Shown here: in pieces, positions 25,811 through 48,184 of the stretch
Position numbering within the stretch: the stretch's first letter is position 1
Layout: each line of letters starts with the position of its first letter
Assembly: GCF_008831285.2 (NCBI RefSeq)
Contig: NC_045140.1
Span: 27,732,131-27,796,130 of the forward strand
Length of the DNA: 64,000 nucleotides
Reading direction: 5' to 3'
From: Nymphaea colorata
Taxonomy: Eukaryota > Streptophyta > Magnoliopsida > Nymphaeales > Nymphaeaceae
Notes under the pieces: generated by a model
Databases searched by the model: none
The model's input: only the letters and a program-made list of their open reading frames with translations
What the model was told of the DNA's origin: nothing
Made by a program: the position numbers and the translations under genes

Positions 25811-26760
25811 TTGAGTGCATGCATGCATGTATTTGTGTGGACTCCAGCAGCCTTAAACGGGATGTTTGTTTTAATGATGCCCTTTGTATAAAAGGTTGCT
25901 CTCTTCTGCTTGGTTGAAAGAAGCTTCAGGCAGGAAAGAGTGGATGGAGCCTTTACATTTCATAGAAGGCATTGAGTTTTATGTGCTTACGTCCACTTGC
26001 TCCTAGAAGAGCATCTCCCATTAGCGGGGGAGCGCCTTGACAGATTTTGTGCATGCCCGCTTTTGCCACCTCAAGGACAGAAGCGGCAGGCCAAGAATTG
26101 ATGTGCCGACTGGCTGCCAAGCCTGCCAGAGGGATAATGCTTCAACCCTCAACTAAGCTTGGTTGAATTTCAACTGTCCAAGAGGGCCAATTCACCCAAT
26201 GAATAAGCATGCAGTTGTGTTTGTATATGTGGTGCTGAATCACTGTCTGGAGTCTAGGTTCTTCTTATCAAATATATGCATGTGGATGAATATGAATTAA
26301 GTATTTTTTCATGTGTTCATGGCCATTATTGTGAATCAGGCAAAGTAATCATGCTCAAAACATGTCCGGGGGTGGTTTCTACCCAATGACCATTGATGAT
26401 TTGAGGTTTGTTGATGCGGGAGACTGGGAAATTGAATCACCAAGGGAGTGGCTGGCGCCAACCAACATATATTCATCAAGTAGGAGCCAAACTGAGGCGT
26501 TGCCATTTTCTAGTGAGTGCAAAGCAAAGCCTCCCGGCCTCAGTCGACAGGCTATCAATAGTCTGCACAGAGAGCTTTTTGCAGGGACTGAAGGTGTCTC
26601 CATTGAATGTTCGATATGCTTGGAGAGATTTATGGTGGGAGAGGGATTGATCCGCTTGCCATGTTGGCACAAGTTTCATCCCGTGTGCCTAGATCCTTGG
26701 ATAACTACTTGTGGAGACTGCCCATATTGCCGTACATGCATAGATGTGGGTTCTGGATGA
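22396..26760 (+). CDS. RHY1A: RING-H2 E3 ubiquitin ligase, RHY1A-like
   Basis: Three exons, 22396-22641, 25592-25782 and 26340-26760, give 285 residues. The start MTSASELF followed by RRSRS matches the N-terminus I recall for Arabidopsis RHY1A. Then come a His/Arg-rich stretch (about residues 44-60), a SERLPGAVLQARARLFERLRG block (about 120-140; RHY1A has ERLPGAVLLARERL there) and a C-terminal RING-H2 finger at about residues 236-276 with ligand order C-x2-C-x14-C-x-H-x2-H-x2-C-x10-C-x2-C. The finger should bind two zinc ions and recruit an E2, making this a ubiquitin ligase; the substrate is unknown. Intron 1 is 2950 bases. Intron 2 begins directly with a long CT repeat (see findings). Introns are in phase 0 and phase 2, and all frames join cleanly. 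Confidence 0.9.
25784..25811. repeat. (TC)14 microsatellite at a splice donor
   Basis: The run begins within the donor of intron 2 of the RHY1A-like gene (AG|GTCTCTCT...). The donor has only the invariant GT; the rest of its intron side is repeat sequence. Confidence 0.9.
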
Positions 26761-27196
26761 GGAGCTTCGTTCTACAGTAGGAAATTTGCTTTTCTGAGTG
26801 ACTGCATTTAACATTATAGTTTTTTTTTGGCCCGCCGTTGTGCCAAAATCTGTATGTTAGTAAGCTTAGAACTGTAACAAACAATTTTGTCAGCATTACA
26901 GAGGCTTTACATTGATGGAATGTAAGCCTTCAGTTATGACTAGCACCATTTCCAGAAAAAGGAAATTGGTTGCTGTGTAGTGGAAATTTCAAGAGACTGG
27001 ATATGTAACAATTTCACTCTGTTAACTTTCCAATTCAGCATAATTATTTACATACGTACACTGAAAAAATTAAAACTGATAAAACTGAAAAGTGCTGTGA
27101 CGACCACAAGCTGTCTATGCTATAGACGGTTGCTAAATACGATTGTGACGATTTTTTTTTTTATCGATAGTCTTCAATATCTGGCAGTTGGCAGCC

Positions 27197-27197
<1 letters not shown>

Positions 27198-27271
<74 letters not shown>
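27198..27271. repeat. Compound microsatellite (TA)n(GA)n
   Basis: About 26 TA units followed by about 11 GA units; open frames across it are repeat artefacts. Confidence 0.95.
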
Positions 27272-27937
27272 CCTTTTACGTGTTGAATAAAAGGAAAGGA
27301 GGCATCCTACTCAAATATTTTTGGAATTTCAAAGCCAAAATAACAAGTTTGAAGGGTTTAGGGGAAAGGTCGTATTAATTTTCTTTTAAGCTTCTCACTG
27401 GAGGCAACCGCACTTGAGCGGACGTACATTCTTGCTCCAGAATTGACGCTTATGGGGCGTTGTGGATTTTTTTTTTCTCCGAATATATGGATTCTAGTTG
27501 CTCAAGTCGAAGCAGAAAAAATAAAAAGAGGTCAGGGTGTATGTTTTCTTTGCATTGTCTCCCACTATTTCTGCTTGGTTCGTGGATTGGACTCTACAAC
27601 CCTTTAATTTTTTATCAGGAAAAAGCTTATCAAATATTTGGGACCTGAGGGAAAAAGAGACTTAAACTGTCTCAGGAGTCGTGTCATGGGAAAAATCGGA
27701 AAAGCTGTTAAAGACACATGAAACAGAGCGGATCTGGTCCTGTGAACGGCAGAATTTACAGCTATGGTGGCATAATAGTTGGCAAGGTTACATACACTAA
27801 GATCATGTTCAATGGAACGAGAGAGAGAGAGAGAGGTGCACCAGGCTAGATGGCTGGACTTATGGCTTTGGAGTTAAATGAAAATAAAAAATTCAATACG
27901 CTGGGTGCGCTTGTTGATTTAAACTGGTAGAGGGCCT

Positions 27938-28086
27938 CAATGGCTCAATCATCTTCTTCCACTTCTTCTGTCATCTAATTTCAGCTTTCAATTGCATATT
28001 TATACAAGTATTATACAAGTACAATGGCTCAATCATCTTCTTCCACTTCTTCTGTCATCTAATTTCAGCTTTCAATTGCATATTTC
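27938..28086. repeat. 65-bp direct repeat, two copies
   Basis: The word starting caatggctcaatcatcttct at 27938 recurs at 28022 and stays identical to the end of gcatattt (about 28002 and 28086). The 19-base spacer is itself a short atacaagtatt-type repeat. It looks like a recent local duplication. Confidence 0.85.
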
Positions 28087-28142
28087 CATTATGATTTTTA
28101 TCCAAATTGAAATAAACTTAATTAGCAGTTCAAGTATGCTTA

Positions 28143-28330
28143 GAGGTCGTTTGGTAGTAGGAACACCATGTGAATGTTCTATGAATTTGTCCCAAAAAGA
28201 TTGAGATATGTTCATAAATCACTAAAATATGTGATGTATGAATCTTCCTCAATCTTTAAGTTATATTCATGAAACACTCATTGAGCAAGTTCATAGAACA
28301 TGAATATTCCCCGATCTTTAGTTTAGTCTT
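28143..28330. mobile_element. Possible MITE
   Basis: It begins gaggtcgtttggtagtagg, a style of terminus common in plant MITEs. The two halves are loosely inverted: gaatgttctatgaatttg (28172) and aagattgag (28197) against caagttcatagaacatgaat (28289) and ctcaatcttt (28249). No matching right terminus or target-site duplication could be fixed. Confidence 0.3.
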
Positions 28331-29222
28331 ATTTTGCCGAGCTTTACGCTTACCTCTTATATTTTCACGTTGATAAATACTGTATATTTTATACTCAAAT
28401 ACCACTGAATCAGACCTCATTTTCACTGTTTCATGGCTTACTTAGCATGTTCGGGTAAAAGTTCCAAGGGTTAAGAAACTTCCACCTCAGTATTTTATGC
28501 TGTTTGCCGGAGGATTATAAGTATCGTAAATGAAATTAGTTTTTCTGGGCATTTCATGATTTCCCAGGGATATATAATTTTATATAATAATGACAGTTTG
28601 AGTGACATTTTAGAACTATACTTCCACAAAACTCACTTGTCACGACTTGGTTTCTAACTTCTAAGTGAGTTTTTTAGAATAGTCAAAATCAAGTTTTAGT
28701 TACTTGAACGACAACTGTTAACTTAATTTTTATGCAACTTGTTTTTTGTTAAGTTTTATGAGAATTTAATAAGCTTGATAAACAATATTACCCCTTTAAA
28801 ACTCGCGTTGGTTTAGAACTGAAGTTCTTTTCATTTTGATTTAGAGCTCGTTTCTTTCCAAATTAAGTTTCTGAAAAGTTTAGTTTTGGCATGTCTCAAC
28901 AAACCTCAAACCAAGTTGTTTGTTTAAACCGAGTTTTACACCACTGAAACAAACCAATTGCTTCAGAAAGATTATCTGTGGTTTTAACTGTTTGTTGATT
29001 TCCCGTGCGGCCACTTATTTTCTGTATTATGTGTAATCCGAAGATCAACACTCGGACTCGATCGATTGCTATGTTGCTCTTAGTCAGTTAATTGGCTCTG
29101 CAGCCTCCAAGGAAAAGATCGGCCAACGCGGCCCCACGGGGCGGGGCTCAATCTTCACCTTCTCTTCCCCAAAACCCTTCCATATAAGAACAGAACAGCT
29201 CCGAGGTCAGAGGGGTTTAACG

Positions 29223-29230
29223 TTTATATA
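29223..29230 (+). promoter_or_regulatory. Candidate TATA box of RPOTp
   Basis: TTTATATA lies 151 bases before the proposed CTG start at 29381. If transcription begins about 30 bases downstream, the leader contains no ATG at all before that CTG. A second candidate, catataagaa at 29181-29190, also leaves an ATG-free leader. Confidence 0.4.
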
Positions 29231-29380
29231 GTCCGAACTCAAGCACAGCAACAACCAGAAAGTACTCAAACTTCTCATCCAAAACTTGCTACCAGACCCA
29301 TCTTCAGTTTTTTCCCTTCCCCGCCATTACGGATTCTTCATCTTCTTCCTGTTTCAGCTTTTAGACCCGCTACCATCACC

Positions 29381-29383
29381 CTG
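29381..29383 (+). promoter_or_regulatory. RPOTp: Proposed CUG translation start of RPOTp
   Basis: The context is accCTGG, with A at -3 and G at +4, the strongest context for plant initiation. The codons after it (AlaSerThrAla) coincide with the residues after Met in Arabidopsis RPOTp as I recall it. The reading frame is open from 29084 with no ATG until 29855 (residue 159, well beyond the presequence). The first ATGs of any frame after the CTG (29458, 29499) open only 13-codon frames. Tobacco RpoT3 is a published case of CUG initiation in the same gene. Confidence 0.75.
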
Positions 29384-32300
29384 GCTTCCACGGCTGCATC
29401 TTTTCTCCCTTGCCCACCTGCCCACTACCACCACTGCCATTCCTCCCCCGCCACTTCATGCAGCAGGGTAAGAGGAAAAGGCCTGTCGCCTTCTCTTAAT
29501 GGCTCTCCTTATGCCGCCCACAGTAGGAAGCCGACCTTAATCTGCAGGTGCGTGCAGACCAACACCTTCGTCTCTTCCTCATCAGAATTCGAGGATTCGC
29601 CTGGGTTCAAGCGGCAACTTCTTATCGAACAGTTCTCTTCTCCTCTCCATTGCCCTCCCTCCCTCACCCCCGTTGACGATGATCTCGTTCTTGGTCCCGC
29701 CACCGATGGGTATCTATGGACGGCTCGTGGGGTTACCGACGTTCTGCCTGGAGAAGCCCCTCCGAGGGTTTTCCTCCTCGACCCACCTTGGCTTCCGGGG
29801 GAACTCGTGCAGGAGAGCAGAAGGCGGTTGCGGGAGAGGGAAAGAGAGAGCAGGATGTATAATTTGCTGAGGAGGAGACAGGTGAAGATGGAGACGGAAG
29901 CATGGGAGGACGCAGCCAGGGAGTATAGGGAGCTCATCAAGGAGATGTGCGAGAAGAAGCTGGCTCCCCATCTTCCATACGTGAAATCTCTCTTTCTCGG
30001 CTGGTTCGAACCGTTCCGGGATGCCATAAGGAAGGATCAGGAGTTCCAGGCCAAGCGAAAAAACCTAGCTGCCGCTTACGCACCGTACATTGGCCATCTG
30101 CCGGCAGATATGATGGCGGTTATTGTGATGCATAAGATGATGGTGCTGCTGATGAACGGGCAGGATGATGGGTGCGTCCGGCTGGTTCACGCCGCCTGCC
30201 ACATTGGGGAAGCTATCGAGCAGGAGGTGCGATGAATTCGTTGAACAAACCTCCTTTCTGCAGTACACATAGTTGCTCATTTTTAAATTCTTGCACTATT
30301 TGGATATAACTCAGCAAGTGGAATGTTAGCCAATTGTTGAGTTTGATCGATCTCAGGGTAGTGGCATTTTAAAGCAATTGGCGAGGTGTTTCCCAATAGT
30401 CTCTTATAATGACTTTCTCGTAGCTTCATTATTTGTGCCATAAGTTCACGGGATTGTGGAATATGGCTGTTGTTTGTTATGAATATACGACAGCTGTTGC
30501 AATAAATAATGTCGAACCCTCCAATCCACTACTCGGGTCAGGAAATATGAAATATGCTACACGTCGACGTAATTCAGTCTCTACTTTTAGAATAAGAAGT
30601 TGCTGCCTGTCATCTTGGTCTTTCTCTTTCAAATATCTGAATAAACAGATTGTAGGAGTTCAAGGTTACTCTTTATTTTTAGTTTGTATTTCTACAGGAA
30701 CAGCATTTTGTCCTCAGGTTCTATTCTGAAACTTGGATTGCCTCGGTAAATACTTCATTGCTTATTTCCTGACCCACTTTTGGTGACTATACTTTGCAGA
30801 TCAGGATTTATAACTTTTTCCAGAGAACTAAGAAATCTGCAAAGGAAAACCATGAAGAAGAAGTAAAGAATCAAAAGGCTCTAAGGAAACGTGTGATGAA
30901 TTTGCTGAAACAGAGAAAATTTCGTGATGTGCAATTACTGGTCGAAGATGAAGATCTGGAACCTTGGGGTAGAGATGCTCATGCTAAGGTTACTCATCTT
31001 TAATTCATTCTAGGGCAACCAATTATTTATCTTTAATACGTGCATCGTGCTACATGTTTCTTCTGGAGGACCAAGTCCGCCCTTGTCTGTCTGAACGTTT
31101 TCTGTTTCATGTGCTAGATCTTGAAATATTTGTATTTGTGTGTACATTTTCAGTTGGGAAGCCGCCTGATAGATTTATTGGTTCAAACAGCTTATGTGCA
31201 ACCTCCACTTGATCAACTAGCAGAAGGTCCTCCTGAAATTCGTCCTGCCTTCATTCATACATTTAAAACTGTCAAGAAGGAAGCAGAGTAAGATTTTTTC
31301 CTCCTTTTAGACATCAATCTATACCTATCTACAGCCTGCCTTTTATCCAACCTCAATATAGGCATCCCAACCCTGGTACGTGTGGTCATTTTAAGCAAGT
31401 CCCATTCTCTTTTGATTCAACTTTGCCACGTAGCACAAAATACCATTTTGTTTATTTCTTTTAGATCAATAAGGCGTCTGAGATTTCCAAACCTGTAAGG
31501 ATTTCAACACTAATTTTAGTTATGATACTCCCACCCATTGCCTATCTAGTAAGATGGAAGGAGTGAAATGTTGGTACTGTGGCTTCTTCTGATCTAGATG
31601 TATCTCTATATCACACTTCAATGAAGTCCATGTTCACAATTTATACATATCTTTACAAATGACTAAATTTGTTATTGAATTCTTACATGTAGCAAGTCCG
31701 TCAAGAGGTATGGAGTTATTGAATGCGACCCACTTGTACGTAAAGGGCTTGATGCAACAGTAAGCTGCCTACTTCTTTTTTAATCCAGACCTCACTTTTT
31801 TCTTTTTATGAGCCGACTATAATAGATGTATACTTTTATCAATCTTCATTCTAAAGATTTGTTAGATGTCAAGTTCTAACAGGATATGGAGTGAATTTTG
31901 TGAAGAGTCATATATGAAGAATCGATGTGTGACTTTTTCTTGTTAATTTCAAATTTTATGAAAAAGCACAATAATGTGTAATGTCTTATATCATATGTAA
32001 ATACGTGGCCTGTTCGTTCTTGAAACTGTGAAGTTCTTGTAGGATATACAGTTTTTAGCATCCTTATAAGGCAACATATGGTTAGATTTTAAGTTATTCT
32101 TTTGTTCTTGTTCTAACTGCTTTGGTTTTGTATCTAACAGGCAAGGCATTTGGTTATACCTTACATGCCAATGTTAATTCGTCCAAAAAAATGGACAGGG
32201 TACGTTGTGAAAATTCCATCTGTGCGTGTTTGTGTATGTATGCATGTAATAGAAATTATGGGGAGTGCCAATTATGAAACACCTTAGTTGATTCATTATC

Positions 32301-35300
32301 TGCAAATTTTCTAACTTTTGGTCAATTTGCATCTTTATGGTTATCTAAGATAACTGTCACATCTGTGTCTATTCCATGAATTCATGGTCCCGAGTATAAA
32401 CAATTTTTGTGATTTGCAGGTATGACAGTGGTGGGCACCTGTTCTTGCCTTCTTATATCATGCGCACTCATGGAGCAAAGCAACAGCGTGTTGCACTTAA
32501 AAGTGTTCCAAAGGACCAACTGAAGAAAGTATCTGAGGTCAGGGTCTCCCACTACTGACAGAAAACAATTTCTATTGATCACCTCACTTGAGGACCTATT
32601 TCAGTAGCTAACATGTATATTCGTAACTATCTTTTTCTTTACTGCAATTCAGCTCAATAAACATTATTATGAAGAGAAAAAGGTTTATGATTTATGAAGC
32701 ATCCCATTGAAAGAAAACTAAAAAGTTTGTTGGTCTTCATAAAGCTTAAAATTTGCTAAATTATGGGGTTATGGTTAAAATGTTGTACTCCACGTGGTCC
32801 TTCTTTCTAGATGTTAGGACAGGTTCCTGGCAGGCTAAAAACCTCTTGAGCAAGTGCTATCATCTATTTTGGATCACGGTTTGTGGAGAGCATGATTGTA
32901 GCTCATGACAAACAATGGTTGCAATTGCTTGAACAGTAGGTCTGTTCCTTAAAATGATTAAATATTTATGATTTTCTCTTGGATTCTTTTTAGTTTCTGT
33001 TTAGTGAATAGGAATGAGCTGAGGCACATATAGCATTTCCTTCTTTTAACTTTTGTTGAAAGTAGTTCCTTTTGCCATTTCATGTGCTGCAGTATGGCTA
33101 TGGAATATGATGCTATGTAGATCCACAATAAGCCATTCATATTTTATAATCCTTAGGGGTAAATTATTAGAAAACTTAAGAGGTTGAACCTGTTGTGATT
33201 GTTAAAGGAGTCACTGTTTCTCTCCTAGATCGGTACATACATTTGGTGCCAAATCTAGTAACATCTAGGCCCAGCTCAATTAACACTCATCCAGCTCAAT
33301 TAACACTCATCCTTTTCATTGGAATTAACACTCGTAGTTCAGTTGTTAGTCGTGACCAGCTCAAAACCATAAATGGACAAATTACACTCTGAACTAAAAA
33401 GATCTAAATTCAACTTTAGACCATTTAATTTATTGGGCCAGTATTTCCACTTGAGGATTTATGAGTATGATACTGATGGGCTGGATACATAAAGCATCCA
33501 GTTCATTGGCAATTTGATGTGTCTAATAAGTTTTTTTCTAGTGAATGAAGTTCATAGCTTCATCATTTCTAGGATGGAAGAGAATGAAGGAAATCTAGGA
33601 AAATGATGGAGAATATTGTGCTTATTATACTATTTCGGGTGAAGTGCAGTCCTTGCCAATTTCCTTCTCCCCACAAGCCAAGTGAAAATTTGAAAAGTAA
33701 AACTTAATGGTAGGTAAACTGGTCTCTCTCTCTATTCTCTTGAACGAACATTCTCAATATCGTATAGGTTTTGAGTAGCTTGTGATCAGACATTTAGATC
33801 ACTCTGGGAATTATGCACGATAAAGACAATGTATTAACCCCACAACTTTTTATCACCTAGGGATTCTGTCACCATATGCACACCAACAATATCGTTGGAG
33901 ATGATTATATATATCCATGAACTCTGCATGTATATACTCATGCATGCATGAATTTCTGCATATTGACATGTTGCACATGACATCTCAGTTGAGTCATGTC
34001 AGTTGTTTTATTCTTGTCTTCATTGTGATGGCAGAGCACATTTCATATACTGCTTTATTGTAGTTTGTAGATTTTCCTTTTTATGTTTGGGTTCAGTTTC
34101 ATCTTAGAGTTGTGCTATGTGGGAGTACTTGTTGATGGTGGTGAAATTATCCAGGCCCTTGATATTCTTGGAAGCACAAAATGGAGGGTGAACAGAAGAG
34201 TGCTTGATGTAGTTGATAGCTTGTGGGCATGTGGACAACCTCTTGCTGGCTTGGTAGATCGCAATGACGTGAGGCTTCTCGACTTCATCATGCCTTTCTG
34301 TTATTTTTTGCCAATTTTTTTTTTCATTTTTAGTCTTGTAAAATTCTTTTTTAGGTTCCTTTGCCTGAGAAGCCATGCACTGAAGATGAAGCACAAATGA
34401 GGCAATGGAGGTGGAATGTCAAAAAAGTAAAAAAGGAAAATAGTGAGAGGCATGCTCAGAGATGTGATATTGAACTTAAACTTTCGGTAAAATCCATATA
34501 AGTGCCTTAGGCTTTCTTTCATATCTCTTGCTTATTTGTACATCCTATAGTGCAAATTTAATTTTTATTGATGAAGCATAGTCTTGCATTTGTAGGTGGC
34601 AAGGAAAATGAGAAAGGAAGATGGCTTTTATTATCCACATAATCTAGATTTCCGAGGACGTGCCTATCCCATGCATCCACACTTAAATCATCTTGGTTCT
34701 GATCTTTGCCGTGGAATTTTGGAGTTCGCTGAAGGAAAGCCACTAGGAAAAAGTGGATTGCATTGGTTAAAGGTACACTTGGCAAACTTGTACGGTGGCG
34801 GTGTAGACAAGCTTTCATATGATGGGCGGTTGATGTTCATTGAGAACCACTTGGCGGATATATTTGATTCGGCAGAAAGGCCCATTGAAGGAAGGCGTTG
34901 GTGGTTAAATGCTGAAGATCCATTTCAGTGCTTGGCTGCTTGTATTGATCTGTCCAATGCATTAAAAAGCCCTTCTCCAGAAAATGCTGTTTCACACATT
35001 CCAGTTCATCTGGTAAGTTCATTAGTAATACGAGAAGCGGCACATATATTTGAGGTCACATAATAATCTTGCAGTATCCTCAGCTATAGTGATTCTATAG
35101 GGCCTGAGACCTAATGAAGCATTACTCCCAATGGCTCAAGCCAGTGAAGTTTGTGATTGGTATCGCAATGAATTGATTATTGACGTACTATGAAAACATG
35201 GAGATGTCTAGGTTTATTTGTTTCTTGTAATATTTGATCGTGTGTGCAATCCAAAAAGCTGCATAGGCAGACAGAAATGGTATCCTTCATGCAAGAATGA

Positions 35301-38300
35301 AGATAATAACACTTGGAACTTGGAAGGATTGATACATGATACACCAAATTTTCAAACTTGTTATGTGGAAAGGGGAACCTTGATCTTATGGAGAAACATA
35401 TTTTTGAATCTAAGATGAGTCATCCAATGTGAACAAAAAAATTAATAGTCATATATACTGCATGTAGACGTCTTCCTTGACTCCACATGAAGCATGTCAG
35501 TTGCCTGTCTTTCTGTGTTCTTCTTCTATTATCAAGTAGCTTGGAAGCATATTCTCCGGATTGGTTGCACCATCTTTTTTTATTATTTTTTGTTGTCTTT
35601 TCTTGGCTTCAGAAGGGTCTCATATTTGTCTTTTATTGTACAATACTCAACATGGGCTTATGCTGTTCATTCATAGGATGGCTCGTGCAATGGTTTGCAG
35701 CATTATGCAGCTTTGGGACGAGATAGGGTAAGATCTTTTAATTCTTGCATTTTTGTTTGTTCTGATCCTTGTCTTAGTTGTCTGTTGGGTAGTTTATATG
35801 CATCTTTAAATGTGGATTTCTACTTGTGGTCAACCTATGATTTTTGTCTGGGTTAAAAATGCTTGTATGCAGTTAGGGGCTGCTGCAGTAAATCTAGTTT
35901 CTGGGGAGAAACCAGCGGATGTTTATTCGGGTATAGCTGCAAGGTATTTTACTTCATTATATTTAATTATGACATTGTGGGGCTTAGCTCTGGATTCTAG
36001 AGATGTTATTGTTAATTTCAGTTTATAATGGCAAAGTGCTGGTTTTGGTAGTTTTTTGAGTCACTGTTAATATGACATTAGTGTACTCTTGAAAGTTGAA
36101 ACTATTATTGTGAACCCAGTTTGTGGCTTTCATGGTATTCAGAAATCATAAGAGCCTTACCTTTACTCATATTAAAAAAAGAAATTCATATATATTTAAA
36201 ACAACATCCTTAAATTTTACTCATATTCAAAGCAACATGTATATTACAAAATAATGGGAAACAACTTTGAAATCAATGTTATATCCCATACCCTCTTACT
36301 GACATTTTTAAAAGTATGCCATGCTCGCATGCACCACCATACCCATGCCAACACTTGACTGGCAGCCATGTGACATATCACATCACAGGTCTCTTTTCTG
36401 AAATAATGACAAAAAAATAGGTTTAAAACAAAAAGGAATTTATAGAAACCCTAATCCTTAACATGAGCTGTGTAGCATCTTCTCCTACTTTGAGGTATGG
36501 CTTCTCTTTCTCCTCCTCCGTGCTGCTCTTTTTTTTCTTTTTGGCTGCACCCAAGCATCATCCACAGGGTGTGAAGCAGGTGCAGCACCCAAGGTGCTGC
36601 TTCCATGAGTCACAGACGTATTTAAGGAGAAAACAACACATGTTCCCATTGTCACAAAGTTGAATTGATTTGCACCAATTATTTACTGGTAGTTTGACCT
36701 CCTGTGGAGTATTTAATCTTTTTTAGTTTTTATAAGGCCAGTTCAGTTGTGTTTCACAAGAAAGTATGCAGGGGATTTATTTAGTGTATCTATCGTGTTA
36801 TAAAGGCCCTAATTAGACCATCTTGTACACTAGTATCATTGGTGTTGGTCACTGGAAAAAGATCGATGAAAATTGCAACAGTTGGTGTTAGTTGTTTTCT
36901 TAGTTTCTCAAGCTGTAACTCATTTAGGTTTCCTCTGGCTTCATTAGTTCATTCATCAAGAACGTGAATTGAAAAATCCAGATAAAATTCCAAGCTCCCA
37001 CTTTTGGAGTTCTATGGAAATGAGCTCTTTTATGCTTTTATGTTTACTAACCATTTATTTGTTTAATGCTGCAAGAGTTTTGGAGATCGTTGTCAGAGAT
37101 TCTAAGAAAGATCCCATTGCGCATCCAACTGCTTTACTTGCTCGTGCTTTAGTTGGTCAGGTTGGTGATTTCATGTTGCTAGGGTTTGAGCATTCTGGTT
37201 GAGATTGATGTTCATTTGGAGCCTTTGAACTATTTTAATAATCTTAGTTGCTTTCTTATGTGATTGATTGTTGATTCTAAGAAAGATCCCATTGCGCATC
37301 CAACTGCTTTACTTGCTCGTGCTTTAGTTGGTCAGGTTGGTGATTTCATGTTGCTAGGGTTTGAGCATTCTGGTTGAGATTGATGTTCATTTGGAGCCTT
37401 TGAACTATTTTAATAATCTTAGTTGCTTTCTTATGTGATTGATTGTTGCAAATAATGCCTATATCAGTTTTCGAAGTGAATTTACAAAGAATACAAAGAA
37501 TTGGGCTATGTAGCAGTGTAATGAGCCACTGTGACTCAGTCAATTTTATTTTTTGAATTTTGAAAAAGAAAAATAATTTTAAAATAATTAAGAAGGCTGG
37601 CACAAATCCAAGACTTATATTGGCCTGTTTCCTTTCCACAAGTGGCCAGCAGAATGCATATATCAGCTGACTCATGCTTATAAAAGTGAATTGTCAATAA
37701 TACTGGTTTCAAAAATAACTATGGGATGATTTTGCGTGAGGCAGCACTCTTTCCATAATCTAGGATTTTCTGTAGCTTGAATATTGAAGCTGTACCCTTC
37801 TTGAAAACTGTAAAATAGTCTTGAATCTCTTGACACTGCCTGATGTACAATGTTGATGACTTGTATGAGTTTTCCTGTTTGTCAAATAGGTGGACCGCAA
37901 ATTGGTTAAGCAGACTGTGATGACTTCAGTTTATGGGGTTACTTATATTGGTGCACGTGACCAGATCAAAAGAAGATTAAAAGAACGTGGTCTCATTACT
38001 GATGACAAGCTGCTATTTAGTGCAGCTTGCTATGCAGCAAAAGTAATAAACATTATACTAACATCAGTTGGACCTTCCATTTTCCTGAGCCTTGATTTAA
38101 GGCAAGATTTTCCTTTTCTACCTTCAGGTTACACTGTCTGCATTGGAAGAAATGTTTCAAGCTGCACGGAGTATTATGTCTTGGCTTGGTGACTGTGCCA
38201 AGGTAAAGAGTTTTCATTCATATGTTTTTCTCTGTTTCCTTCATTTGCTATCCATATAGAACTCGTGATAATGGTCTACCATATGTGGGTTGGGCTCCAC

Positions 38301-41300
38301 AGGTGATTGCTTCAGAGAATGAACCAGTAAGATGGACCACTCCTCTTGGGCTTCCAGTTGTGCAACCGTACTGGAAACAGTCCAGGCACCTTGTAAATTC
38401 TTAGCCCTTTTCTATTGGTTCAGACGTCTCTCTTCATATTATAATTGCTGCAATTCTGAGTTTTGATAGATTCTAACGATAGAGCTTGTTGAAATAAATT
38501 GACACAGATTCAGAAGGTTTTTTATTAGGCAATCTGGCCATGTAAACCAAAAGAATAGATTACTAATTCTGTCATGGTTTTTGTATAAATTATTTGTTAT
38601 GATGAACAAGGTCCCATGGCCATTAATGTGGAATTTCTAAGTCACATGGCCTTGCCAAAATGACTGCTGCACCCATGCTGACTGCTTTTGGGTGTGGGTG
38701 CACCTCAATTGTGTGAAAGGACAAATTCAAATGAGTTGGTTACCATCAGCCATATTCAACTATTTTCCGCAATTATGGTGTGTGCGTCCAGAACTTGGAG
38801 TTGGTCAAATTTGACCTAATTTATTGTTGTCCAATTTTTAAGTGATAAAATTTTTAAAAAAGGTATAAAGATGGATTAGAGTGAACTCTCCTCTCTTTAT
38901 CGCTCTCTATGTGGTTTTTTTAGGGCTGCAGATCTATTTTCTGTGTGGCTTTAAAGTTGAATCTGTTTTATGTATTTATTTTGATTAATACTAGTTCTGT
39001 TTTATGTGGTTTTCATTTGAGTTCTAGTATTAAGTTTGGATTTAGATTTTATTATATTTTTGGCTGTGATATCTTGTTGGCAATTTTTTTATGATTATAT
39101 ACGTGTGCGTGTGTGTTTATGTGACCCTTGCTGCACCTGCGTCCAAGTTTTCTTGCGAAGTGCTGAACCTGCATGCTGCACCTGTATGACATAGGGTAAT
39201 TTTAAGAAGCATTAAACATAACAAATGTGTTGGTAAATACGTGAATCTTCTCATGTTGGCAAACAGTGAGGAACAAATGGATCTAACAAGATTTCACAAG
39301 TCAGATCCTCTGTCATGGCAAATTTGTAAAGATGTTTAATTCATTACTGCATAGCTTTGGGTAGTGTAAGAAATGCTGCTTGGTACATTGAATGGTCTCA
39401 TTGAACATATTGATTTTTTGAAGGCTAGTTGTTCCTTTTCTTTTGGAAGAATGTTAGTGTGTTTGGTATGGATAAGGTAGATAAGGTTGAAAAGTTGAAT
39501 TACTTGCTAGTCAGCTTAAGTGCAATATGATCAAGATAGTAGGTAACTCTTGGTGTCATCTTGTCTTGGAAGTGTTGCACTTATAGTTCCTTTGTATTGA
39601 CGCAGTTGTTCCATTATATGGCTTCATTCATTTCTTGGTACTTGCAGGTTAGGACTTCACTTCAGGTTCTGGCATTACAAAGAGAGAGTAACAAGGTAGC
39701 TCAGGAAGCCGTGCAAATGGTTTTTTTGTTAGAAATTTATGAGCCGTTTAAAAGCTGCTAGAAATGTTTGGTTCTTGGTGTGTAGTTTATGTATATACAT
39801 TTCCTTAATGTCTTCTTCTTTTTCTAATTCGTTTTTTGTTGAGCTTGAAAACCTTTGCTGATACTGTTTCACTATGTAGTGGACAAGCTTGTTTGCCTCG
39901 TTGTTTCTTGTCTTAAATGTTAATTTATCTTGTTGATGTTTGTTTTCTGACTCTTCTCAGGTTTTGGTAAAGCGGCAGAGAACTGCTTTTCCACCAAATT
40001 TTGTTCATTCGCTTGATGGTTCACATATGATGATGACTGCTGTTGCTTGCAATGATGCAGGTTTAAACTTTGCAGGTTAGTAACTGCGTGTTACATTTTT
40101 TGTTGAACAGATTTTTTTTGTTACAGTTTTGTCCTTATCCTCATTTTCATCTCATTGAGGTTATCCTTGTGATGATAATTCGGAATGCATGGTATTTTCG
40201 GGACATTATCCTTGTCAGAATTTTGGGGATATCCATGGATATAGCTCACTAGAATAAGTAACTGTCTTAAAAATAATGTTCAACTATAGGATAAAAAATC
40301 CACACGTGGATTGAATCCCTCAACCCAACATATTCGTTCTGTCACATTCAAATAGCTTTCCTGAAGCTGTAGATGGTCAGCACCATCCAAAACTTGGACT
40401 TTGAAAAGAAATGTATATTTTTTCATCCCTGCAAACTATCTGATATTTCATGTTGAATCCAAAAAATTAAGCATCAAAATAAGATTTTTCAATAAGTGCA
40501 ACTTGTATCCAATCGAACAAATTTATCTTCAGGTGGGATCATTTTTAGTAATTGCTGATTGAGTTTTATATGACTAGTTCTTCCTGCTGAGTGTTAATGA
40601 AATTGGTTGCATTTTGATCACCAGTGTGTCTTTTCTTTCTAAACCCATCAAGGTAATTCAGTGTGGGTACATCAATTAGGTCCGTTTACCCGTGTTGCCG
40701 TATCCATATCCGAAGTGGTACTTGGACACACTTGGGTGCTTTTTAAATCGAAATTTATCCAGGCTGCTTAGTTTATTTGATTTAATTTTTTTCAACTTAG
40801 TTTTCATTCTGTTTCTAGAGTTATTGTTCATTAACATGTAATGTTTTTATTCATATCACTTGTTTATTTAAATGTTTTCATTTTAATTTTTTAATGTTAT
40901 TTTGCATATATATACATCATAGTCACAAATAACGACTCGGAGTTTTGAATAGCGAAGTTTTTCTCAGGTATAACATGGTGGACTTGAAAAATACAGGAAA
41001 AAAATCGGGAAAAAAAAGTATTTTAAAAAAAAATAAAAAAACTAAAAGTGAGGAAAAATAAAATGTGAGAAAGTAATAATGCAAACATCAAAAGGTAAGT
41101 AGATTTACAACAAATAAAAAAAATAGAAAATGAAAAAATATTGTTTGGCATTAAAAAAATATAAAAAATGAAAAAAAGGCATAAAAATGAGTTTTTTTTT
41201 TTCATTTTTCACGTTTTAAAAAAAAAACGCATTTCTTTAAAGTTTTAAACGGCCTTACATTTTCTCGCGTTTTTTTTAAAATAACACGTTTTTTGTGACT

Positions 41301-41357: not shown

Positions 41358-42274
41358 CTATCCTTGTACCCTTATTTCTACATTTTCTAAAGTTGCTGGT
41401 CCATATCTGCATCTCTGTACCCATGCTGAACAGTACCCGTACCCATGTGACTTAGCCATCAAGAGTATTGTTAGCAAATTAATTCACCAAAGCGATGATA
41501 GGGAATGAAGACATGCTAATGCTTAGAGTCATTTGACATCAAATGCAGGGATCACATGGTGGGCATTTATTCATAAAATGGTTGTGCTTTAGTATAAAAC
41601 GATTTGCTAAACGGAGAAACTAACAGTAGTTATGCATAAAACATATGCAAATGGAATTTGGGTCACGGCATGTATTCATAAAATGGTCATACTTTAATAT
41701 ATGACGATTTGGTAAAAGGAGAAGGTAACTAAAAGTAGTTTTGTGTATAAAACATAAACAAATGGAATTGGATCGCATGATGCCCAAACAGATGTATTAT
41801 GTGTCCTTATGAGTTTTCAGGACTAATATGGAAGATGATTGTGCTTGAATTGAAAGAAATTTGTTTTTTCAGAGAATCAAAAGTATTGACTTTGTATGTT
41901 TCTGCAACTCCTTAAATCCTAGTCTTCATCCCCATATTTACTTATTGAAGGGGTGCATGATTCATATTGGACGCATGCGTGTGATGTTGATGACATGAGC
42001 CGTATCCTCAGATCAACGTTCGTTGAACTTTATAGCATGCCCATTCTTGAGAATGTAAGTTTCTCTCTCTCAGCACGCACAGACCAAACCTTTGTTATGC
42101 TGACGGTTGGTCATTCTGATTTTCTAAATGAGAGTATCATGTATTTGCTTTTCTGCCATGCAGTTGTTGGAGAGCTTTCAAGCATCTTTTCCATCTCTTG
42201 TTTTCCCTCCACTGCCAGATAGAGGTGATTTTGACTTGCAAGAGGTGCTTGAATCTCCCTACTTTTTCAACTGA
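29381..42274 (+). CDS. RPOTp: Phage-type plastid RNA polymerase RPOTp (non-AUG start)
   Basis: Nineteen exons: 29381-30226, 30800-30988, 31154-31287, 31693-31759, 32141-32199, 32420-32537, 34155-34268, 34355-34486, 34596-35012, 35677-35727, 35873-35943, 37076-37160, 37890-38042, 38128-38202, 38303-38392, 39648-39695, 39961-40075, 41951-42054, 42164-42274. All joins keep frame and give 992 residues, against 993 as I recall for Arabidopsis RPOTp (RPOT3). It is the nuclear-encoded single-subunit T7-type polymerase that transcribes plastid genes. T7-equivalent catalytic residues are visible: Asp693 in DGSCNGLQ (T7 Asp537), Lys768 and Tyr776 in [10 protein letters not shown] (Lys631, Tyr639) and Asp925 in VHDSYW (Asp812). 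The protein ends YFFN. The N-terminus ([10 protein letters not shown], Ser/Ala/Pro-rich) suits a plastid transit peptide. No in-frame ATG precedes codon 159, so CTG at 29381 is chosen. Blocks such as [15 protein letters not shown] fit RPOTp better than the mitochondrial paralogues. Confidence 0.94.
33272..33311. repeat. 20-bp tandem duplicate in RPOTp intron 6
   Basis: cagctcaattaacactcatc occurs twice in immediate succession within the 1617-base intron 6. Confidence 0.9.
37098..37447. repeat. Identical 175-bp tandem duplication across RPOTp exon 12
   Basis: The unit from gattctaagaaagatcccat (37098) to the base before its recurrence at 37273 is repeated without any difference that I can find. 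The unit holds the last 63 bases of exon 12, its splice donor (CAG|GTTGGT at 37160) and 112 bases of intron. The second copy therefore leaves a duplicate exon tail and donor inside intron 12, with no new acceptor in front of it. The normal junction 37160 to 37890 still gives the right protein. Confidence 0.95.
40918..41303. mobile_element. MITE-like element in RPOTp intron 17
   Basis: Terminal inverted repeats of 17 bases with one mismatch, catagtcacaaataacg (40918-40934) and cgttttttgtgactatg (41287-41303), bound 386 bases. The inside is very A-rich on this strand and has no coding capacity. It lies in the 1875-base intron 17, directly before an (TA)n microsatellite; the AT-rich flanks hide any target-site duplication. 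Confidence 0.6.
41309..41351. repeat. (TA)n microsatellite in RPOTp intron 17
   Basis: A run of about 21 TA units, six bases after the right end of the MITE-like element. Confidence 0.95.
41550..41790. repeat. Tandem repeat of about 105 bp in RPOTp intron 17
   Basis: Blocks attcataaaatggt, acgattt..taaa.ggagaa, aacataa..aaatggaatt and gg.tc.c..catg recur at a 105-base offset (tcataaaatg at 41571 and 41676). Two diverged copies and the start of a third are visible upstream of exon 18. Confidence 0.7.
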
Positions 42275-45194: not shown

Positions 45195-48184
45195 ATGGAA
45201 GTCTCTGAAAGACTAAAAGCCAAAATGGGTTCCCATGAAATCCAGTCACTAGAGGAAAAACAGTGCTTGGTAGTCAATCCTGAACCCCGGGTTCTGCAGA
45301 ACAATGGCCGCAGAACCTTCTTTCGCCTCCTTAGGGAGCCATTTGATTGGTTGTCAATGCTCTGCAGGGAGCTCGAAACCAGCTTCATTTTGGCCATCAT
45401 TGTGGTGTATGGCTTTAGCCAGGGATTCTCGGGTTCTTTCTTCAAGGTGGTAACCGACTACTACTGGAAGGATGTGCAGCAAGTGCAGCCGTCGGCGGTT
45501 CAGTTGTACCAAGGCCTGTATGTCATGCCATGGATCATGAAACCCATCTGGGGCCTCCTCACCGATGTATTCTCCATAGCTGGCTATAAACGCAGACCAT
45601 ATTTTATGCTTGCAGGTGTGTTCATCCTTAACTTCACTTTCCTCAATTTTCCTTTTTTTTTTTTCCTGTTATATGAAATGCTAATATTCTATTCATGTGT
45701 GCTTTGTATCAAATTTGAACTTAAAGGTCGGGTATAATTTATTGTGAGAACACTTTTCAAATGATAACATGCATGAGAATTGAGAAAGGCATTTATAATA
45801 CCAAAAGTATTTTGTTTCACGTATTATATTTAGTTTATATAATCTTCCATTCAAAGTTCTGCTGGGAGACAAACTTCCCTTCCCATTATTACTAAGAAAT
45901 GATATTTACAGAGAAAAAAATGGGGATGCATCATAGACCGAGACCCTGGCAGTTGAACAATACTGCCCAAGAGGAAAATAAGCAGTCAGACTGCAGCAAC
46001 AAAACACAGATCTGAAACCACAAAAGTAGTAAACAGACCATCCAATATCCGAGTGTCCATCTATATTTCCATATCTACATAGAAATTTCCCTATTTCTAA
46101 CGTTGGCAGGTCACAACAATGGATAAGCGAGACCTTATCCGACTGAGAAATTCCCACTTTCTGGAAATGCCTCTTCTTCCCGCCAGCAAACCATTTAGCC
46201 TTCTTTTTCCATCCCCTGGTATTGGTGATAAGCACATCTGCGTTCCATGAAGAACCGGATTAAGCTTCCCCTTACATGTCCCTCCAACCTGGAGCTATCA
46301 CTTTCTCTGATTTCTTCCACATGGAGACAAGGTACACCATCCTTCTATAAAAGCTAGTTTCTCGGTTTCGCACTTTCAAAGTGAGTTTCGAGAGGAGCAA
46401 ACTTTCCTGTTCTCAGAAGATTCAAGCAGCCATATTGCATACTGTAGACAATACATGTTTGTCTCAGAATTGCCATTTAAGGAGATGGTAATTGGTTGTG
46501 TTGCATGGACTCAGGCACCCTTGGCAGCTTGTGCGCGTTGCTACTATTGCAGAAGAAGCCTCCTGTCCTGTTCGCCCTCATCTTTCTCACAGGCATAAGC
46601 ACTGCAATGTCAATAGCAGATGTCACCATCGACGCTTGTATTGCTCGCAGCAGCATTCAGAAACCTGCCTTAGCATCAGACATGCAGAGCCTCTGTGGGT
46701 TTGTCTCTTCTACCGGAGCAATTCTGGGGTACTCCACCAGTGGGATGCTAGTTCACACCCTTGGAGCGCAGGTAAAAGTCTCATCTAAAGCGACCGCTGA
46801 AGTTCCCCCCAAAAAAAGAGCAGCGATCTATAGCTTCCCATTTTCCTCGTTAATCATGATTAATCATTGATGATGAAGGTGATAATGAAGAATCTGCTCT
46901 TTTCTTCCCTCTGATGCAGGGAACACTGGGTTTGCTAACTTTACCCCTCATCATGATCATCACTCTTGGATTTACAATGAATGAGGCCAAAGGCATGATT
47001 CGAACTGATAAAAAGGTACTAACGAAGATATGAGGTTTCACTTCACTTTGCCTGATCTTGGTCTAAAATAGCATGGTATGTCTGCATAGAGAATCACAGA
47101 TCAAAAAATGCACAGCTATTGCAGTGGAGCATACTTGATCCGTGTTCTCTTAGCAAGGCACCATTTTTTCTTGAGCGTTGCAGCAAAGCTGCTCTGCATT
47201 ACACGTTGATTCTCTCAAACATATTAGCCATGCTTGAACCACAAGGAATTTATTCCAGTTGGGGTGACCAACTTGAAACCGCTCTTATGAATGTATAGTA
47301 TTTATTGGGCTCATGAATGAGTGTCTCCAACTTTATTTGAAGATGTTTGCAAAGGTGAACGGAGCAGTGCTAGACATGATCAAAACTATGAAGTATCCTG
47401 GAGTATGGAAGCCCTCACTGTACATGTACCTCTCCATAACACTTAGCATCAGCACGCATGAAGGACAATTTTACTGGTACACTGACCCTAAAGCAGGCCC
47501 TGCCTTCTCAAAGGTATAGTCTTAGCCGCACAAAAACACATAAGCATAAGCACAAACACAACCTTAGAAAAAAGCAACTTCTTTAATTCAATTCACAATT
47601 TCCCACAGGAGTTTGTTGGAGTAATATATGCCATAGGGGCTGTTGGATCGATTGTGGGGGTAATTCTATACCACAAGTTCTTCAAGGAGTTTCCATTTAG
47701 AACAGTGATCTTCTTTGCTCAGCTCCTGTATGGTGTCTCAGGAATGCTAGACCTCATGTTCGTTCTCAGGCTCAATCTGAAACTTGGGGTCCCGGACTAC
47801 GTCTTTGTAATAATGGAAGAAATGTGTGCGCGGATCATTAGCCGGATAAGATGGATGCCGATGATAATTCTAATCACAAGACTGTGCCCTCTGGGGATAG
47901 AGGGAACATTCTTTGCGCTGCTCATGTGCATAGACAGCACCGGTTCCTTGTCCAGCAAATGGGGTGGAAGCCTTGTTCTTCAACTGCTGAAGGTCACGAG
48001 AACAGATTTCAGGAACTTGTGGTTGGCTCTTCTGATAAGGAATCTGCTGAGGATCTCAACCTTGGCTCTGATTTTCCTAGTGCCCAAAGCAGGGCCAGCC
48101 GATGCGATGCTCCCTGATGAAATGCTGGACGCCTCCAGGAATGACCATGACAAAGAAGAAGGCCTACAATTGGTCTGTCCATGA
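45195..48184 (+). CDS. Folate-biopterin transporter family (BT1) membrane protein
   Basis: Five exons, 45195-45615, 46515-46771, 46920-47015, 47343-47513 and 47609-48184, give 506 residues, a normal length for the family. Family blocks in order are YGFSQGFSGSFFKVVTDYY, LYQGLYVMPWIMKPIWGLLT with DVFSIAGYKRRPYF, ISTAMSIADVTIDACIA, DMQSLCGFVSSTGAILGY, WKPSLYMYLS, a loop with FYWYTD and LCPLGIEGTFFALLM. The many hydrophobic segments fit the usual twelve-helix major-facilitator fold. Family members such as the plastid FBT1 carry folates and pterins; the substrate here is inferred only from the family. I see no obvious plastid presequence, so a plasma-membrane or other location is likelier than the plastid. 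Exon 2 could also be opened at 46485, but the 46515 acceptor restores the family LAG-x-x-G junction. The paralogue group resembles Arabidopsis At5g10820/At5g25040. Confidence 0.92.

Follow-up and report, generated by a model that had tools for sequence, protein, structure and literature searches.

Where does translation begin in a gene whose first in-frame ATG lies at the very edge of the conserved enzyme? The question is raised by a polymerase gene in a stretch of 64,000 nucleotides from the water lily Nymphaea colorata (the window), which would be the nuclear RpoTp gene for a plastid-targeted, phage-type, single-subunit RNA polymerase. The answer that we consider very probable is that RpoTp initiates at a CUG codon at 29381 and yields a 992-residue preprotein that is imported into plastids. 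A preliminary description had proposed this start from the nucleotide sequence, and both the anatomy of the gene and an experimentally tested gene from another water lily, Nuphar advena, support it; for the Nymphaea gene itself we infer it.

Gene Structure and Relatives in the Genome

The structure of the gene follows directly from computation. Its exons were placed manually, guided by reading frames and GT-AG borders, giving a model of 19 exons and 18 GT-AG introns that ends with a TGA at 42274 and reproduces the 992 residues previously counted from the CTG (Table 1). RPOL_N (PF14700, E = 2.3e-26) is matched by exon 1 from residue 166 onward, and RNA_pol (PF00940, E = 2.1e-35) by exon 9. When compared with solved structures, exon 9 matched mitochondrial RNA polymerases and T7 RNA polymerase, and as a query against viral contigs it found one relative, with 43% identity. 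The number of introns equals that given for angiosperm RpoT genes in the available extracts of Yin et al. (2010; PMC3022604). By its domains and its 18 introns, the gene is a plant RpoT phage-type RNA polymerase.

Two further features lie within the gene. A perfect tandem duplication of 175 bp (37098-37448, two copies, 100% match) includes most of exon 12; its second copy is located in intron 12 and is devoid of the first bases of the exon. It could be either a very recent duplication and potential alternative exon, or an assembly artefact. An antisense open reading frame of 172 amino acids (29509-30027, minus strand) overlaps exon 1 and is probably a by-product of GC-rich coding sequence.

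Table 1. Positions of the RpoTp gene features in the window.
Feature	Positions	Strand	Remarks
TATA box (TATATA)	29225..29230	+	sole TATAWA in 29084-29380; 1 observed vs 0.035 expected by shuffle
Putative 5' leader, about 124 nt	29257..29380	+	68% C+T, without ATG in any frame
Proposed initiation codon CTG	29381..29383	+	A at -3, G at +4
Proposed plastid transit peptide, residues 1-68	29381..29584	+	0 acidic, 19 Ser/Thr
First in-frame ATG, codon 159	29855..29857	+	edge of conserved polymerase region (RPOL_N from residue 166)
Exon 1, coding part	29381..30226	+	exon model
Exon 2	30800..30988	+	exon model
Exon 3	31154..31287	+	exon model
Exon 4	31693..31759	+	exon model
Exon 5	32141..32199	+	exon model
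Exon 6	32420..32537	+	exon model
Exon 7	34155..34268	+	exon model
Exon 8	34355..34486	+	exon model
Exon 9	34596..35012	+	exon model, RNA_pol domain match
Exon 10	35677..35727	+	exon model
Exon 11	35873..35943	+	exon model
Exon 12	37076..37160	+	exon model
Exon 13	37890..38042	+	exon model
Exon 14	38128..38202	+	exon model
Exon 15	38303..38392	+	exon model
Exon 16	39648..39695	+	exon model
Exon 17	39961..40075	+	exon model
Exon 18	41951..42054	+	exon model
Exon 19 with TGA stop	42164..42274	+	exon model

A search of the whole genome (407.77 Mb, 783 contigs) with the exon 1 protein gave three matches from four scored candidates: the window gene, the only one matched over the full length of exon 1, and two paralogues, on C3 near 10.39 Mb and on C8 near 24.14 Mb. 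Their exons were obtained by spliced alignment to residues 159-992 of the window protein with no junctions imposed, so that exon 1 is partly covered, and each paralogue was resolved into 19 exons. From exon 3 on, the paralogues and the window gene agree in coding length (exon 19 being compared without its stop codon), except for exon 13, which has 150 instead of 153 bases in the paralogues; exon 2 measures 204 and 210 bases in the paralogues and 189 in the window gene. The window protein is 71.2% and 71.3% identical to the two paralogues (830 and 832 aligned residues), which share 81.5% identity with each other over 837 residues. The window gene is here taken to be RpoTp.

Both paralogues have in-frame ATGs well ahead of the conserved domain, whereas the window gene has none there. 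Their related starts, MWK and MWR, lie 160 and 158 codons before the domain. In the C8 paralogue (minus strand, upstream of 5390), three ATGs fall within the 100 bases before the MWK start, its first in-frame ATG, and are possible upstream open reading frames. The genome also holds a fourth RNA_pol match, divergent and intronless (C12:1439820-1443764, E = 4.1e-20), on a 23-Mb contig; its frame, listed with 932 and open for 987 amino acids, is adjoined by a second one of 294, and we take it to resemble the polymerases of the mitochondrial-plasmid type. Beyond the own genome, the exon 1 query produced 17 pattern matches in a collection of genome contigs, none of which was confirmed as a relative.

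The Start Region

Re-reading of the sequence bears out the anatomy on which the preliminary description had relied. The RpoTp frame is closed upstream by a TAG (29081-29083), is open from 29084 and has its first in-frame ATG at codon 159; the CTG is flanked by A at 29378 and G at 29384; and no frame contains an ATG from the TATA box up to the CTG, the earliest one occurring at 29458. The ATG of codon 159 sits seven residues ahead of the RPOL_N match, so that an AUG start would leave no presequence. It is also preceded by six ATGs downstream of the TATA box (29458, 29499, 29511, 29679, 29706, and 29716), all of them out of frame, which makes leaky scanning from the region of the CTG as far as codon 159 unlikely. 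From the spacing of the TATA box, transcription would start near 29257. Between this point and 29458, five near-cognate codons are in frame, and a purine at -3 is combined with G at +4 at 29381 alone.

Chance expectations for this region were obtained from 2,000 dinucleotide shuffles in each case. The absence of ATGs is unremarkable, both in any frame (P = 0.72 for 29257-29380 and P = 0.36 for 29257-29457) and in frame across codons 1-158 (P = 0.27), and as a matter of composition it was dropped as a statistical argument for the CUG start. An in-frame CTG with a purine at -3 and G at +4 within 29257-29458 is less common in the shuffles (P = 0.03). The pattern gains its meaning because the product of the frame is a conserved enzyme dependent on a presequence, and because the Nuphar gene has been tested by experiment. 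The residues ASTA that follow the CTG would coincide with those after the Met of Arabidopsis RPOTp.

An N-terminus free of acidic residues and rich in Ser and Thr is typical of plastid transit peptides. Residues 1-68, counted from the CTG, agree with this composition as expected: besides their Ser and Thr they include six Lys or Arg, and the earliest Asp or Glu is residue 69. Over the same length, the two paralogues read from their MW starts contain six and three acidic residues, and within residues 159-992 of RpoTp no acid-free run exceeds 35. The in-frame codons between the putative transcript start and the CTG are, however, nearly acid-free too (one acidic among 41), so that composition does not pin the start to the CTG exactly.

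RNA structure was considered as an enhancer of the start and rejected, as the predicted folds are no stronger than those of shuffled sequences. Downstream of the CTG (29381-29480) the fold gave z = -0.28, with 78 of 200 shuffles equal or better, and leader and start together (29257-29480) showed no excess structure (z = +0.48). For NsRpoT-C of Nicotiana sylvestris, the extracts of PMC2001202 describe a hairpin predicted to form at position 22 (-12.7 kcal/mol). By contrast, no stable hairpin was found 12-30 nt downstream in the Nymphaea gene; such a hairpin is a prediction for NsRpoT-C rather than a required feature of CUG-initiated RpoTp.

Taken in order, ribosomes would scan a leader that is short, rich in pyrimidines and free of AUG, and would begin translation at the CUG with initiator Met-tRNA, helped by A(-3) and G(+4). 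The acid-free, Ser/Thr-rich N-terminus would then carry the 992-residue preprotein into plastids.

Comparison with Nuphar advena

According to the extracts of Yin et al. (2010; PMC3022604) at hand, Nuphar advena possesses three RpoT genes, as do eudicots. The RACE cDNAs of its plastid gene, NaRpoTp, have 18 introns at known sites and support the start, and the gene has no in-frame ATG before nucleotide 466. With its native leader, the CUG at +148 sends GFP to chloroplasts, and changing CUG to CAC abolishes import; the N-terminus read from the first ATG is reported in these extracts to lack targeting properties. They give the leader of the GFP construct as 236 nt, a length not reconcilable with +148 (PMC3022604).

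The two genes are alike in having 19 exons and no in-frame ATG before the end of the presequence; the window gene would also share with NaRpoTp the plastid identity and the CUG start, and is most simply its Nymphaea counterpart. The protein lengths are similar (985 residues in Nuphar, 992 in Nymphaea), as is the distance to the CUG. The genes differ in the first in-frame ATG, which is codon 107 in NaRpoTp (nucleotides 148 and 466) and codon 159 in Nymphaea. Upstream stops are reported before the Nuphar CUG, whereas the Nymphaea frame stays open for 99 codons upstream, past the putative transcript start. The evidence for the start also differs in kind, comprising RACE, GFP import and the CUG-to-CAC change for NaRpoTp, and sequence for the Nymphaea gene. 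In NaRpoTp, 106 codons separate the CUG from the first ATG; the equivalent point in Nymphaea is residue 114, at 113 codons from the CTG. This comparison is arithmetic on the reported lengths, counted from the C-terminus. If the shared part is without indels, as it assumes, the two CUGs would lie within about seven codons of each other.

The remaining members of the family are less alike. The extracts report the mitochondrial RpoT pair of Nuphar as 96.8% identical (PMC3022604), compared with 81.5% for the other two Nymphaea RpoT genes; the difference would require duplications of different age, with an independent or more recent one in Nuphar, or else gene conversion in that species.

Alternative Explanations

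The CUG start has to be weighed above all against an additional first exon upstream, which would supply an in-frame AUG and be spliced to a point before codon 159, for instance at an acceptor that ends 23 bases upstream of the CTG, at 29357. Such an arrangement can be built: with a score of 9.0, the acceptor exceeds the lower quartile (8.0) of 54 RpoT acceptors and stays below their median (9.8), and at thresholds set to the tenth percentile there are 30 combinations of an upstream ATG (26761-29456), a donor and an acceptor in which the frame is uninterrupted. The splice-site matrices used here were built from the 54 introns of the three RpoT genes, which also served as the yardstick, so that real sites are flattered. 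Yet the TATA box would put the transcript start downstream of the ATGs in all 30 combinations, strict GTRAG donors leave just one candidate for the acceptor at 29357, and in a leader of this C+T content acceptor-like sites may arise by composition. The cDNAs of Nuphar, as far as extracts of the paper report them, point the same way, with 18 introns at known sites and the first in-frame AUG at nucleotide 466 (PMC3022604). We regard an upstream exon as unlikely. More unlikely still is a start at another near-cognate codon or at multiple sites. The best example would be a second in-frame CTG at 29483 (codon 35, G at -3), which leaves 34 acid-free residues ahead of residue 69; an out-of-frame AUG precedes it at 29458, its +4 base is T and, assuming no indels in the shared part, it fits the reported Nuphar distance of 106 codons less well than the CTG at 29381 with its 113. 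As a minor start this second CTG is possible.

Two other explanations were considered. An assembly error might hide the true ATG, or the gene might be a decaying copy, and the perfect 175-bp repeat running from exon 12 into intron 12 could be an artefact of this sort. Against either stand the intact frame of 992 codons with its 18 GT-AG introns, the full-length match of exon 1, confined to this gene among the three genomic matches, and the same CUG-start trait found independently in Nuphar, as given in the extracts of PMC3022604; we find this explanation highly improbable. A cryptic intron (29468-29585) could join the ATG at 29458 to the frame (MQQEFEDSPG...) and give an AUG form without transit peptide. 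Its donor, at 9.0, ranks in the top quarter of the 54 real donors (upper quartile 7.9), and the splice is in frame, but the acceptor (4.8) falls under the tenth percentile of real acceptors (5.5), and in base composition the segment (53% GC, 25% T) departs from the 18 real introns, which have 29-41% GC and average 40% T. The product would have an acidic start and no presequence. On account of the poor acceptor and the exon-like composition the cryptic intron was rejected, and we give it almost no credence. Initiation at the CUG at 29381 is the preferred reading.

Non-AUG Starts in Plant Nuclear Genes

Translation from CUG is recorded for tobacco RpoT3/RpoTp and for NsRpoT-C of Nicotiana sylvestris (Hedtke, 2002; Kobayashi, 2002; both as cited in extracts of PMC3022604 and PMC2001202), and the former cites the tobacco gene as a precedent for plastid RpoT. 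These resemble the Nymphaea gene as plastid RpoT genes read from CUG, and differ in belonging to eudicots. The sharing of a non-AUG start by distant angiosperms, put forward in the preliminary description, was already in print for Nuphar and Nicotiana in 2010, according to the extracts of PMC3022604. Nymphaea RpoTp is a new, probable member of this known case.

Organellar proteins with non-AUG starts of their presequences were reportedly described by Christensen in 2005. AGAMOUS of Arabidopsis has an ACG start (cited in PMC3022604 and PMC2001202, as extracted). Like these organellar proteins, it belongs to the plant nuclear genes with non-AUG starts, but none of them is RpoT. Among the matches listed, titles and abstract lines of the open-licence literature reported no start for Nymphaea RpoTp. 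Within the open-licence literature searched, RpoTp, CUG and translation came together in PMC3022604 alone, and the available extracts of PMC7412009 mention neither CUG nor a start codon nor a transit peptide.

Should the start be confirmed, one and the same gene would have an exclusive non-AUG start in tobacco and in two water lilies. Such sharing would speak against coincidence, and a comparison of the start column among angiosperms would gain interest. RpoTp of Arabidopsis has an AUG start. It is conceivable, though we rather doubt it, that the CUG start is ancestral in angiosperm RpoTp, dates from before the divergence of water lilies from the remaining flowering plants and was kept because weak, stringency-dependent initiation limits the plastid polymerase, AUG starts being later reversions. 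The suggestion that CUG use is a regulatory device acting through the stringency of initiation is speculation. In practical terms, automatic annotation that demands an ATG would be expected to truncate RpoTp at codon 159 and to lose the transit peptide.

Neighbouring Sequences

Upstream of RpoTp, inspection by eye revealed a stretch of about 64 bases starting CAATGGCTCAATC, present in two copies about 84 bases apart (27938-28085); this repeat is absent from the tandem arrays detected in the window. The reading frames 26362-26760 and 45195-45737 match the RING finger and the BT1 transporter family, respectively.
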